From the NCBI GenBank assembly GCA_013289145.1, contig JABDAM010000011.1, forward strand, positions 1-41,264: a stretch of 41,264 nucleotides of DNA. Reading direction: 5' to 3'. How positions within the stretch are numbered: position 1 is the stretch's first letter; each line of letters begins with the position of its first letter. Below, piece after piece: positions 35,590 to 39,068 of the stretch. The notes under the pieces are model-generated. The model made no database searches. It was not told the origin of the DNA and was given only the letters and a program-made list of their open reading frames with translations. Source of the stretch: Alphaproteobacteria bacterium (GTDB lineage: Bacteria; Pseudomonadota; Alphaproteobacteria; UBA11073). The translations under genes were made by a program, and so were the position numbers.

Positions 35590-36201
35590 CTATTCCTTCC
35601 TCGCCGCCTCTACCAGACTAAGAACAGACGGCCACATCTTGTCATTGAAGTATACCTTACTCTCATCCTTACGGGCAAGAACCTTAATCCCTATCCCCTG
35701 TTTATCTTGTAAAATTTCCAGCGGATATCTCGCATCAATGATCAACGCGCGGTCAACCAGAGGCAGGTATAAATCCACCAGATTCACCAATCCTCTTCCA
35801 AAACGGCGGCGAATGTCTTGTTCTGGAATATTATGTCCTCCCTGTGCAACACGAATGGCGACACGATCGACTGCCAGATCAGCCGATGGCAACCATAGAA
35901 AGATAAGCGTTGCCCTGTACCCAACCTTCTGTGCTCGCTGAATGGATTGGGCATGCCCCTTCCCTGCCGCGGTGCTTTCAAATGCAAAATTCTTGCGCTT
36001 TGAAATGAGTGAACTGATGCGTGATAACATTACCTTTCCCGCGTCTACAGCGGCCTCATCCGCATTAAACGGGCTGATGCCTTTTGCAATCTCATCGGCA
36101 TTCACGAATTCATTGGTTTGCAAAAAATCACGCAACATCGCTTTCGCCGCCGTCGTTTTCCCCGCACCATTCGGCCCTGCGATCATATAAACGTCAGGCA
36201 T
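35590..36201 (-). CDS. Zeta-toxin family P-loop kinase
   Basis: A 203-aa P-loop protein of the zeta/PezT-like group. In known toxins this fold phosphorylates UDP-N-acetylglucosamine and stops wall synthesis; the substrate here is unknown. The ATG at 36201 starts MPDVYMIAGPNGAGKTT, Walker A at 9-16. EFVNADEIAKGISPFNADEA and FAFESTAAGKGHA (after the KRKN strand) are typical of the family; VDRVAIRVAQGGHNIPEQDI and RRRFGRGLVNLVDLYLPLVD form the lid and C-terminal helices. It starts four bases after the gatA stop and is followed directly by the small partner gene, then gatB. The pair is thus lodged within the gatA-gatB operon on the same strand. Confidence 0.88.
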   Translation of the reverse strand: MPDVYMIAGPNGAGKTTAAKAMLRDFLQTNEFVNADEIAKGISPFNADEAAVDAGKVMLSRISSLISKRKNFAFESTAAGKGHAQSIQRAQKVGYRATLIFLWLPSADLAVDRVAIRVAQGGHNIPEQDIRRRFGRGLVNLVDLYLPLVDRALIIDARYPLEILQDKQGIGIKVLARKDESKVYFNDKMWPSVLSLVEAARKE

Positions 36202-36205
36202 GGGC

Positions 36206-37699
36206 CTACGCCGCCATGATCGTTGGAGTTGCCGTGAAACCAGCGGCGGCCTCAAGCGCGGCGGCGGCGCGGATCATCGTGATTTCGTCAAACGATTTGC
36301 CGATCAATTGCAGCCCGAGCGGCAAACCGTTCGCGGCCAGGCCCGCGGGCACCGACATGGCGGGCAAACCGGCCATGGATGCGGGAATGGTAAAGGCGTC
36401 GTTCAAATACATTTCGACCGGATCGGTTGGTTTTTCTTCCCAGCCGAATGCAGTCGAAGGCGCGGTGGGCGCGAGCAAGACGTCGCACTTTTTAAACGCC
36501 TCATCAAAATCGCGCGCAATCAGGGCGCGCACGCGCTGCGCCTTGCGGTAATAAGCGTCGTAATAACCCGCGCTCAAAACATACGTGCCGATCATAATCC
36601 GGCGCTTCACCTCACGGCCAAAACCTTGCGCGCGGGTGTTTTCGTACACCGCCGTTAAATCTTTACCCTCCGCGCGGAGGCCGTAACGCATGCCGTCATA
36701 ACGCGCGAGGTTCGATGAACATTCCGCCGGCGCGATGATGTAATAAGTCGGCAGGGCGTATTCCGTATGTGGCAAAGACACCTCAATAATTTCCGCGCCC
36801 GCGTCGCGCAGCCATGCCGCGCCCTTGTCCCACAGCGCTGAGATTTCCGAATTCAAACCGGACGGGCGGTATTCACGCGGAATGCCGATGCGCAGGCCTT
36901 TGATATCCTGGCCCAAACCACGCGTGAAATCCGGCGTTTCGATGCGCGCGGAAGTGCTGTCTTTCGGATCTTCACCCGCCATGGTGTTCAACATCAACGC
37001 GCAATCTTCGACCGTGCGCGCGAACGGCCCCGGTTGGTCGAGCGACGAAGCGAACGCCACCACGCCCCAACGCGAACAGCGGCCATAGGTGGGTTTAATG
37101 CCGACAATACCCGTGAATGACGCTGGCTGACGAATGGAACCGCCGGTATCCGTTCCCGTCGCGCCCATCGCGCCGCGCGCCGCGACGATCGCCGCCGACC
37201 CGCCAGATGAACCGCCAGGCACGAGTTTCGGACTGTTATGCCCTGCACCTTCCGCTCCAGTACGTTTCCATGGGCTTTCGACGTAACCGTAAGCCGACGT
37301 AATATTCGCCGAACCCATGGCGAATTCATCGAGATTTAACTTGCCTAAAAACGCCACGCCGGCATCCAGCAAATTTTGCCCTACCGTACTTTCATACGTC
37401 GGCACAAAGTTTTCCAAAATCTTACTGCCCGCCGTCGTGCGGATGCCTTTCGAACAAAACAAATCTTTATTCGCCAGCGGAATTCCATCGAGCGGCAATG
37501 CCGTGCCCGCCGCATAACGCGCATCCGAAGCCTTCGCCGCCGCCAAAGCCTGTTCCGGCGTTTCGGTGATGTAACAATTCAGCGGGCGCAATTGTTCAGT
37601 GGCCTTGATATGATCGGCCACAACTTCGGACGGTTTGAAATCCTTGTTGCGGTAGCCTTTTAGAGCTTGCGCGATAGTGAGATGGGTAAAAGTTGTCAT
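36206..37699 (-). CDS. gatA: Asp/Glu-tRNA amidotransferase subunit A
   Basis: GatA is the amidase subunit that frees ammonia from glutamine for the GatB site. The 497 aa belong to the amidase-signature family: the Ser-cisSer-Lys triad is Lys78 in NKDLF, Ser164 in [10 protein letters not shown] and Ser188 in [11 protein letters not shown]. Typical GatA regions also include [25 protein letters not shown] and NEAFKK-like [20 protein letters not shown] near the end. The zeta-like kinase starts four bases after its stop. Upstream, a DUF559 element of 440 bp separates it from gatC, so it may need its own promoter in the 54 bp left. Confidence 0.97.
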
Positions 37700-37752
37700 C
37701 GCGGTACCTTAGCCAAACCAAGGCTTTTCGCAAGAAATAATTTTAAAAATTC

Positions 37753-37803
37753 AACCTCCCCCTTGTGGGGAGGTCAAAACGCGGCACGCGTTTTGGGTGG
37801 GGG
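37753..37803. repeat. Left inverted repeat of the DUF559 element
   Basis: It contains an outer hairpin (ACCTCCCC-cttgt-GGGGAGGT, approximate loop) and an inner hairpin AAAACGCG-gca-CGCGTTTT (37776-37794), then GGGTGGGGG. The DUF559 stop codon (37774-37776) and its last ten codons lie within this repeat. Confidence 0.85.
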
Positions 37804-38148
37804 GATATGCGCCAGAACATCATCGATCACGGCACTTAAGTTTTGGTTAATGTCCCGATTGCTATAGCGCAAAACCTGATAACCTTCTGATCGCAAAAAT
37901 TCATCGCGCGGCGCATCTATATCCATGTCATGATGGCTGCCATCAATTTCAACAATCAGGCGATGCTCGTGGCAGCAAAAATCAGCAATATATTTTCCAA
38001 ACAGAGCTTGCCTGCGCCATCGACCATAAATTCTTCTATCCTGTACTTTAATCGCCAACCAGAATTTTCGCTCTTCCGGCGTCATGTGCTGGCGCATACT
38101 TCGCGCGAAGAAAAACTGCGGTGAACGATTCACGTGTGTTACCCCCAC
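37774..38148 (-). CDS. DUF559 endonuclease-domain protein
   Basis: A small protein of the DUF559 family, related in fold to Vsr-type (very short patch repair) and PD-(D/E)XK endonucleases. MTPEERKFWLAIK (residues 22-34), GRWRRQALFGKYIADFCCHEHRLIVEIDGSHHD (about 42-74) and LRSEGYQVLRYSNRDI (86-101) are the family's core; the IADF...IVEIDG pair is the likely metal site. The longest frame starts at GTG 38148 inside the right repeat; a GTG at 38133 or the ATG at 38097 (MRQHMTPEE) may be the real start. The stop lies inside the left repeat. It separates gatC from gatA. DNA target and activity are unknown; a role in moving the element is inference. Confidence 0.85.
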   Translation of the reverse strand: MGVTHVNRSPQFFFARSMRQHMTPEERKFWLAIKVQDRRIYGRWRRQALFGKYIADFCCHEHRLIVEIDGSHHDMDIDAPRDEFLRSEGYQVLRYSNRDINQNLSAVIDDVLAHIPPPKTRAAF

Positions 38149-38192
38149 CCAAAATTGCTATGCAATTTTGACCTCCCCACAAGGGGGAGGTT
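38142..38192. repeat. Right inverted repeat of the DUF559 element
   Basis: The reverse complement of the left repeat in its outer 27 and inner 13 bp. The inner hairpin is AAAATTGC-tat-GCAATTTT (38151-38169), with four stem positions changed on both sides relative to the left copy, so pairing is kept. It ends six bases before the gatC stop codon region. Confidence 0.85.
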
Positions 38193-38197
38193 GCTTT

Positions 38198-38485
38198 CTA
38201 TTCCACCACCTTCGGCACGACAAAATAATTCTCCATCGTCTCCGGCGCGTTCGACACGATATCCGCCGCGCATCCGCCTGCCGTCACGACATCTTCGCGC
38301 AGCGGCAAGGTCATCCCGCTCACCGATACCAGCGGTTCCACGCCGTCGGTATTCACGGCTTGGAGTTTTTCAATCCAGCCTAAAATACCGTTCACCTCCG
38401 CCGTCATGGCGGGCAGTTCATCAGGCGGAATGGCGATACGCGCGAGGCGCGCGACCTTGGCAACTTCGGGTTCGGACAGGGACAT
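38198..38485 (-). CDS. gatC: Asp/Glu-tRNA amidotransferase subunit C
   Basis: GatC is the small subunit that wraps around GatA and GatB and stabilises the complex. The 95 aa fit the family: LSEPEVAKVARLARIAI at the N terminus, an interface helix (ELPAMTAEVNGILGWIEKLQ), VNTDGVEPLVSV, and the C-terminal PLREDVV...NAPETMENYFVVPKVVE. The ATG at 38485 is used; three further codons upstream start only with TTG. It is divergent from ruvX. A DUF559 element begins six bases after its stop, separating it from gatA. Confidence 0.96.
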   Translation of the reverse strand: MSLSEPEVAKVARLARIAIPPDELPAMTAEVNGILGWIEKLQAVNTDGVEPLVSVSGMTLPLREDVVTAGGCAADIVSNAPETMENYFVVPKVVE

Positions 38486-38519
38486 GTTTTTCAACCTTTT
38501 TAATAGATTTACTGAAAAA

Positions 38520-38602
38520 GAGGCTGGAAGCTAGAGGCTGGAAGCTAGAAATTATACTTTTCTTTCCTAAACCTAGCCTCTAGCATCCAGCCTCCAACTT
38601 CC
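38520..38602. repeat. Direct and inverted GAGGCTGGAAGCTA repeats between gatC and ruvX
   Basis: GAGGCTGGAAGCTA occurs twice in tandem (38520-38547), and an imperfect inverted copy of the same unit lies at 38573-38602, touching the ruvX start. The whole can fold into a long imperfect stem. It occupies the divergent promoter region of gatC and ruvX. The unit looks like part of a dispersed family, but I see no further exact copy in this window. Confidence 0.7.
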
Positions 38603-38603
38603 G

Positions 38604-39068
38604 ATGCGCCATCCCCCCAAAACCTTCCTCGACGCCGCTGCGCCCGGAACCGCCCTCCTCGCGCTGGACGTCAGCGCGAAACGGATCGGACTGGCCGTGA
38701 CAAATCCGGAACGCACGCTGGCGCTGCCGGTGGAAACGCTGCGCCGCCGCAAGTGGGCGGATGACGCGGCGGCGCTGGTTCAAATTATCCGGGAGAGGAA
38801 TATCGGCGGCCTAGTGATCGGGATGCCGTTGCGCGCGGACGGCACCACGGGCCCCGAGGCGCAAAGCCGCCTGACCTTTGCCCGCAACCTGGATATCGCG
38901 TTGACTGCGGCGGGCATCACCCTGCCCTATGTCATGCTGGATGAAAGTCTGACGACACATGCCGCGCGCGAAACTCTGGCCGGGCGCGGCGCGGCGCATG
39001 CGGCGGAAGACCAGATCGCCGCGCAAATGTTATTGAACCATTTTATGGCTCAAGACTTTGGGAAATAG
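38604..39068 (+). CDS. ruvX: Putative Holliday junction resolvase / pre-16S rRNA nuclease RuvX (YqgF)
   Basis: A 154-aa RNase H-fold nuclease. YqgF matures the 5' end of 16S rRNA in Escherichia coli and was first described as a Holliday junction resolvase candidate. Visible are ALDVSAKRIGLAVT with catalytic Asp22, LVIGMPLRADGTTGPEAQ, VMLDESLTTHAARE with a Glu, and AAEDQIAAQMLL with the last acid. It is divergent from gatC, as in many alphaproteobacteria. Its last 26 bp overlap a small gene on the other strand. The region just before the start is part of an inverted repeat, and no good ribosome binding site is visible. Confidence 0.93.
   Translation: MRHPPKTFLDAAAPGTALLALDVSAKRIGLAVTNPERTLALPVETLRRRKWADDAAALVQIIRERNIGGLVIGMPLRADGTTGPEAQSRLTFARNLDIALTAAGITLPYVMLDESLTTHAARETLAGRGAAHAAEDQIAAQMLLNHFMAQDFGK

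Follow-up and report, generated by a model that had tools for sequence, protein, structure and literature searches.

BoxC repeats have been on record since the 1990s. More than 260 genomes contain triplex repeats of the BoxC/PIT/TM type, and how these spread is unexplained (PMC4666352). These repeats are common in bacteria and partly arranged in inverted pairs, and no explanation of their origin has been given (PMC4666352). Intrastrand triplex formation in vitro was shown for the E. coli motif only, and in vivo footprinting of this motif gave no stable triplex (PMC4666352). Promoter or terminator activity of PIT elements was not seen (reported in PMC4666352). The E. coli pairs combine one type A and one type B motif in five cases out of five (PMC4666352). 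The words nuclease and endonuclease are absent from the text of that study, and the 36-nt sequence that it lists for E. coli as motif no. 9 (1,351,204-1,351,239; PMC4666352) is identical to a motif beside ycjD, a gene of the DUF559 family. VsrA of Caulobacter crescentus belongs to the same DUF559 family as YcjD of E. coli, and studies and annotations treat the two as repair proteins or as hypothetical ones; the literature passages that we found on them do not mention flanking repeats.

We analyzed a stretch of 41,264 nucleotides from an alphaproteobacterial draft genome, hereafter the window, in which a small unit lies between gatC and gatA. Its parts and neighbors are listed below.

36206..37699, minus strand: gatA (PF01425), the host gene flanking the unit on one side
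37752..38193, no strand: the complete unit, in which a single DUF559 gene is enclosed by two inward-facing end modules; located between gatC and gatA
37752..37803, plus strand: left end module, defined by inverted-repeat and triplex-module analysis
37755-37761, then 37767-37773: left pyrimidine arm (CCTCCCC) and, after a loop, left purine arm (GGGGAGG)
37775-37795, then 37796-37802: left linker hairpin and left third strand (GGTGGGG, the mirror of the purine arm)
37774..38148 (longest frame), minus strand: DUF559 gene (PF04480) for a PD-(D/E)XK / Vsr-fold nuclease, profile match E = 5e-30
38142..38193, minus strand: right end module, with the same architecture as the left one
38190-38184, then 38178-38172: right pyrimidine arm and right purine arm
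38170-38150, then 38149-38143: right linker hairpin and right third strand
38198..38494, minus strand: gatC (PF02686), the host gene flanking the unit on the other side

The outer arms of the unit (37752-37779 and 38166-38193) are 28 nt long and 100% complementary, and so are the inner arms of 13 nt (37791-37803 and 38142-38154). Between outer and inner arms lie centres of 11 nt, CGCGGCACGCG on the left and, as reverse complement, TTGCATAGCAA on the right. With 28, 11 and 13 nt, the total arm is therefore 52 bp rather than 51. The linker hairpin of the right module has a sequence unlike that of the left one, yet it is self-complementary: four of four stem pairs are changed on both sides, and a stem of 9 bp folds in both copies. 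To look beyond two copies, we considered the end family to which the window's unit belongs, in three genomes (the window's own, G000, and G005 and G086). Its 16 distinct centres have a mean contiguous stem of 8.1 bp, compared with 3.5 bp in shuffled sequences; the centre thus varies freely in sequence while its pairing is preserved. No perfect triplex-type end modules occur in the 41-kb window other than the unit's two ends. At 38519-38600, between gatC and the next plus-strand gene (38604-39068), there is a further repeat that has inverted parts (GAGGCTGGAAGCTAGAGGCTGGAAGCTAG ... CTAGCCTCTAGCATCCAGCCTCC) and is not related to the unit. An open reading frame adjoining gatA (35590-36255, minus strand) encodes a P-loop (AGPNGAGKTT) and resembles zeta-toxin-type ATPases.

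A preliminary description of the window, made from the sequence alone, had recognized a unit with inverted-repeat ends splitting gatC from gatA, a hairpin in both copies with four matched changes, and selection on structure. These claims held, with a 9-bp stem in each copy and support for selection that now rests on the 16 centres (8.1 against 3.5 bp). It had also placed the stop and possibly the start of the nuclease gene inside the repeats, and both are there: the gene is intact, its stop lies in the left end, and the GTG start of the longest frame lies in the right end. The arm length of 51 bp (27 outer and 13 inner identical positions) had to be corrected to 52 bp (28 and 13 nt). Two points had been missed, namely a third element, since the inner GGTGGGG mirrors the hairpin's purine arm GGGGAGG and is a potential third strand, and the closer repeat class, the BoxC/PIT/TM intrastrand triplex motifs.

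In an end module, a pyrimidine arm is followed in turn by a loop, a purine arm, a linker and a G-rich strand that mirrors the purine arm. We scored this last strand by the third-strand rule of the purine-motif triplex (G facing G, A or T facing A), and it was perfect in 73 of 102 ends of DUF559 units. Among ends with asymmetric arms, the mirror fitted better than a direct copy (48:5, p = 7e-9). Each third strand also fitted the arm of its own end better than it fitted swapped ones (p = 1e-14). Both ends in the window satisfy the mirror rule of the BoxC/PIT/TM triplex motif. The published consensus, CCCTCNCCC-N3-6-GGGNGAGGG-N3-GGGNGAGGG, is not matched by these ends, which read CCTCCCC..GGGGAGG, a 22-nt linker and then GGTGGGG. 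Because the consensus is unmatched and the linker is longer and filled by a hairpin, we class the window ends as triplex modules of BoxC/PIT/TM architecture and not as BoxC in the narrow sense.

In the active-site region, four residues (D, E, D and H) are each conserved in ≥99% of 89 DUF559 proteins, and the window protein has all of them (D58, E69, D71 and H75 in one aligned-fragment numbering; D55, E66, D68 and H72 in another). An AlphaFold model of this protein (pLDDT 88) matched the Neisseria DUF559 structure 3hrl, the homing endonuclease I-Bth0305I and PvuRts1I, and Vsr weakly. The fold match to I-Bth0305I (3r3p) had E = 1e-4, a probability of 1.0 and a TM-score of 0.68-0.75 on the target. 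At a DUF559 locus of N. gonorrhoeae, whose protein belongs to the family of the solved structure 3hrl (NGO0050), the flanking triplex-type repeats look direct rather than inverted. No PADLOC model matched the window protein or E. coli YcjD; the DUF559 protein of S. meliloti gave weak domain matches. An anti-phage defense system was considered as the identity of the unit and rejected, the window protein being without a PADLOC match.

To determine how general this arrangement is, we compared the two flanks of 69 alphaproteobacterial DUF559 loci, sampled as the 30 best-scoring matches and 40 chosen at lower ranks, from which a few at contig ends were left out. Control positions (294) were taken inside the DUF559 loci themselves. 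An inverted-repeat score of at least 16 was reached between the flanks of 71% of the loci and at 0.7% of the controls (p = 6e-24), and a score of at least 18 at 44 of 69 genes compared with none of 294 control positions. About 29% of the DUF559 loci are without a clear inverted pair. The matched ends vary from locus to locus, yet agree on both sides of each DUF559 gene, and the similarity of the nucleases tracks that of the ends over all loci (Mantel p = 3e-4). Outside Alphaproteobacteria, scores of at least 16 were found in Deinococcota (four loci, L175, L176, L180 and L181), Cyanobacteriota (L179), Omnitrophota (L023), Bacteroidota (L026) and Armatimonadota (L028). The genomes reached through such non-alphaproteobacterial loci contained 4-90 modules in five of six cases. 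We conclude that genes and ends are associated in several phyla and that the family of DUF559 genes with such ends spans at least six bacterial phyla. Some DUF559 genes on cyanobacterial plasmids (L177, L178 and L182) adjoin genes for DUF1156 or BREX PglX methyltransferases and lack matched ends; they represent a second context of the family, possibly related to defense.

We then asked whether end modules and DUF559 occur together at the scale of whole genomes, counting modules with one end-module pattern and scoring DUF559 as present at an E of 1e-10 or better; the counts over 289 genomes were transcribed by hand from the search output. At least five end modules were found in 64 of 76 genomes with DUF559 compared with 15 of 213 without (odds ratio 70, p = 6e-37), and the association persisted when labels were permuted within families over 30 mixed families (p = 1e-5). 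The reversed control pattern was near zero in most genomes. Y1_Tnp/RAYT showed no such association with the repeats (odds ratio 1.1, p = 0.75): they were present in 48 of 57 genomes with DUF559 and no Y1, and in 1 of 40 with Y1 and no DUF559. The Y1 HUH transposase of RAYTs (PF01797) had no match in G000, a draft that is 70% complete. These data show that nuclease and repeats co-occur genome-wide, independently of Y1/RAYT.

The DUF559-negative calls are not fully reliable, because the PF04480 genome search missed the E. coli control although strain K-12 has ycjD. In two nominally DUF559-free genomes (G006 and G041), a profile search revealed decayed DUF559 fragments abutting end modules. Missed DUF559 genes as the full explanation of the repeat-rich negatives had to be rejected, since the profile search remained negative in several of them, among them G244, in which it found no DUF559 beside 105 end modules. 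Given this genome and a total of 15 repeat-rich genomes without a confident match, repeats can outlive the gene or be moved otherwise.

The relation between gene-bearing and gene-less copies was studied in G013, a complete genome of 3.38 Mb with 10 DUF559 matches, of which 1.6 Mb were read for modules. This part contained 239 modules compared with 4 in the reversed sequence. Inward-facing neighbors within 1.5 kb numbered 84, of which 77 had spacers of 0-100 nt, and the spacers of gene-less pairs clustered near 30, 41, 60 and 88 nt. Three inward pairs were 100-600 bp apart, and each of them encloses DUF559. Across the eight well-formed DUF559 copies of this genome, protein similarity correlated with end similarity (rho = 0.64, exact Mantel p = 0.011), which shows that nuclease type and end type co-vary inside one genome. 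A scan of the 77 gene-less units of G013 found no target-site duplication. Many outward-facing modules in G013 overlap by ~20-24 nt, with one hairpin in common and a third strand on each side.

In the gene-less short-linker pairs of G013 the two linkers differ in 44 of 45 cases, in 36 of them by C/T or A/G transitions only (for example CTG/TCG, CCG/TTG and CTA/TCG; pairs among L149-L168 and L197-L256). Identical linkers were found in 5 of 19 gene-bearing units compared with 1 of 45 gene-less ones. It is inferred, from sequence alone, that gene-less units of G013 would create T:G or C:A mismatches in the linker when folded back. Since the linkers of gene-less units almost always differ, folding back would put T opposite G, the type of substrate recognized by Vsr.

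Further copies were sought in G000, a draft of 1.42 Mb. The outer repeat has one further copy there (contig C31, position 3826; L003), a gene-less unit with two inward-facing ends and a short spacer, and it is also present in other families of the class. A second DUF559 gene of the same genome (contig C24) is flanked by inverted repeats of a sequence different from that of the gatC-gatA unit. In the only genome of the same genus that was compared (G001), the gatC-gatA spacer is 2 bp long and the unit is absent. The two genomes thus show a presence/absence difference at a conserved site, in which gain is not distinguished from loss. Three Deinococcus plasmids (L175, 1099-3994; L176, 382-4333; L181, 1-4299) carry a DUF559 unit at different gene junctions of the hpa operon; in D. 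proteolyticus, the junction interrupted in Deinococcus strain NW-56 is intact, with the two genes overlapping by 4 bp. On a fourth Deinococcus plasmid (L180), a DUF559 unit lies inside the paa operon. The units in hpa (4-hydroxyphenylacetate) and paa operons may reflect a target preference or repeated insertion into aromatic-degradation operons, a possibility that we raise tentatively. In E. coli, the interval between sapF and fabI (L108, L112 and L113) holds either the efflux operon eefRABCD or ycjD with BoxC-type repeats (PMC12817139), a variation that offers a natural presence/absence system for the DUF559 element. The close strain pairs examined gave no exact empty site with identical flanks, and no useful presence/absence pair was found among the plasmids of S. 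meliloti and Azospirillum.

The preliminary description had proposed a mobile nuclease-repeat unit, to be abandoned if the repeats were confined to the gatC-gatA site, or if they were widespread without a link to DUF559 genes and all close relatives shared the spacer. None of this was observed: there is a gene-less pair elsewhere in G000 and there are copies in other families, the link to DUF559 is strong both locally and genome-wide, and the same-genus genome lacks the unit. The proposal is supported and generalizes beyond the window; transposition itself is not shown. Its comparison of a single-gene nuclease element with structured ends to REP/RAYT holds as an analogy only: no Y1 transposase was found in G000 and Y1 does not track the repeats.

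Our preferred reading, to which we give a probability of about 0.7, is that the unit belongs to a family of very small, single-gene selfish mobile elements, whose nuclease acts on the triplex ends and spreads gene-less copies; the mobility mechanism is inferred. That nuclease and ends form one unit is well supported. That the nuclease causes the spread of the repeats is inferred from co-occurrence, co-variation and anatomy, no transposition event having been followed in real time. An autonomous copy would consist of one DUF559 gene (~115 aa, Vsr / I-Bth0305I fold) between inward-facing end modules ~340-480 bp apart, and the single-stranded DNA of an end would fold into an intrastrand triplex. 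Its non-autonomous derivatives would be single modules and gene-less copies, in which ~28-97 nt separate two modules, and the classical BoxC/PIT/TM repeats may be derivatives of this kind. The nuclease is predicted to recognize folded ends and to nick or cut them in cis and in trans, an inference without biochemical data, and would do so when the DNA is single-stranded during replication or repair. Host functions may then copy the cut strand into a new site or join it there, without duplicating the target. A PD-(D/E)XK nuclease alone cannot join DNA, and host replication or repair must therefore take part. The exact cut site and the joining are the least certain steps. A bolder reading, possible at best, is that this is a new kind of mobile element in which a Vsr-fold nuclease reads triplex ends with T:G mismatches as the signal, and of which hundreds of BoxC/PIT/TM families would be the non-autonomous progeny.

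The main rival to this reading is that DUF559 is a homing nuclease parasitizing existing triplex repeats: the repeats would spread otherwise, and the gene would insert between two of them and cut pairs that lack it. In its favor, I-Bth0305I, a homing endonuclease, is among the closest solved folds, pairs without the gene are more numerous than pairs with it, some genomes are rich in repeats and have no DUF559, and identical linkers are commoner in units with the gene (5/19) than in those without (1/45). However, where there is no DUF559 there are hardly any repeats, and this holds inside bacterial families as well; within a single genome, the type of nuclease varies together with the type of end; and copies occupy unrelated sites instead of one cognate site. 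We consider homing unlikely and cannot exclude it. DUF559 could also be an ordinary Vsr-like host gene linked to repair or restriction, flanked by chance by repeats that are recombination hot spots or terminators. Caulobacter VsrA, a DUF559 protein, indeed has a DNA-damage phenotype tied to a cytosine methyltransferase (PMC12907096), Vsr is a weak fold match, and some cyanobacterial copies adjoin methyltransferase genes. This explanation is nevertheless very unlikely: matched ends lie on both sides and are specific to each copy, a genome can contain up to 10 different DUF559 copies, unit size is uniform, repeats and DUF559 co-occur genome-wide, and PIT elements were reported to be without promoter or terminator activity (PMC4666352).

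Still less probable is a REPIN origin of the repeats, in which a RAYT/Y1 transposase would move them and DUF559 would be cargo. The paired inverted palindromes do look like REPINs, and target duplication is lacking, but Y1_Tnp was not found in G000 and is not associated with the repeats over the 289 genomes; RAYT as their driver was rejected (Y1 odds ratio 1.1, p = 0.75). Chance or a composition artefact could be suspected because the ends are C- and G-rich. This is all but excluded, as reversed-sequence and reversed-pattern controls were near zero, same-locus controls were negative, and a mirror third strand beats a direct copy.

Under the single-gene element reading, the BoxC/PIT repeats found in E. 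coli and hundreds of other bacteria have a candidate source for the first time, the DUF559 element, and pairing triplex repeats with a widespread family of unknown function gives both a role. The question is directly testable, for example in E. coli K-12, where ycjD adjoins BoxC-type copies. If the mechanism is true, it would represent a mobile-element strategy in which the nuclease is unable to join DNA and the ends are defined as triplexes instead of by a specific sequence.

In the open-access literature that we searched, we found no paper linking DUF559 to repeats, subscription journals and most preprints being outside its scope. The repeats and the DUF559 family are each known; a description uniting them in a single type of element was not found in that literature. 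With BoxC/PIT/TM (Holder et al. 2015, PMC4666352), the elements share the order of the module, the intergenic position and the inverted pairs; those motifs are known only as repeats of unexplained origin, and have a 3-nt linker where the window has a hairpin-filled one of 22 nt, as well as a different sequence. REP/REPIN with RAYT (TnpA-REP) resembles our elements in its small, structured inverted pairs, high copy number, single type of flanked gene and lack of target duplication, and the many-copy paired inverted palindromes of REPINs are present here (the gene-less pair of G000; 77 pairs in 1.6 Mb of G013). It relies on an HUH/Y1 transposase, whereas DUF559 elements combine a PD-(D/E)XK nuclease with triplex ends and have no link to Y1_Tnp. 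Free-standing Vsr-like homing endonucleases such as I-Bth0305I are likewise single-gene selfish nucleases and match in fold. Unlike them, DUF559 elements bring inverted structured ends of their own, occupy many unrelated sites and have numerous gene-less derivatives; the single conserved cognate site of homing genes is lacking, with copies at many unrelated sites in one genome and at several hpa junctions in Deinococcus. An autonomous copy accompanied by gene-less derivatives with common ends recalls a MITE and its parent insertion sequence, but the DUF559 element is without a DDE or other transposase, no target duplication was detected, and its ends are under selection for structure and not for sequence. 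Tested against the features that define REPIN/RAYT, MITEs and homing endonuclease genes, the DUF559 element does not satisfy all of them, and within the limits of the open-access search we rate it as a new kind.
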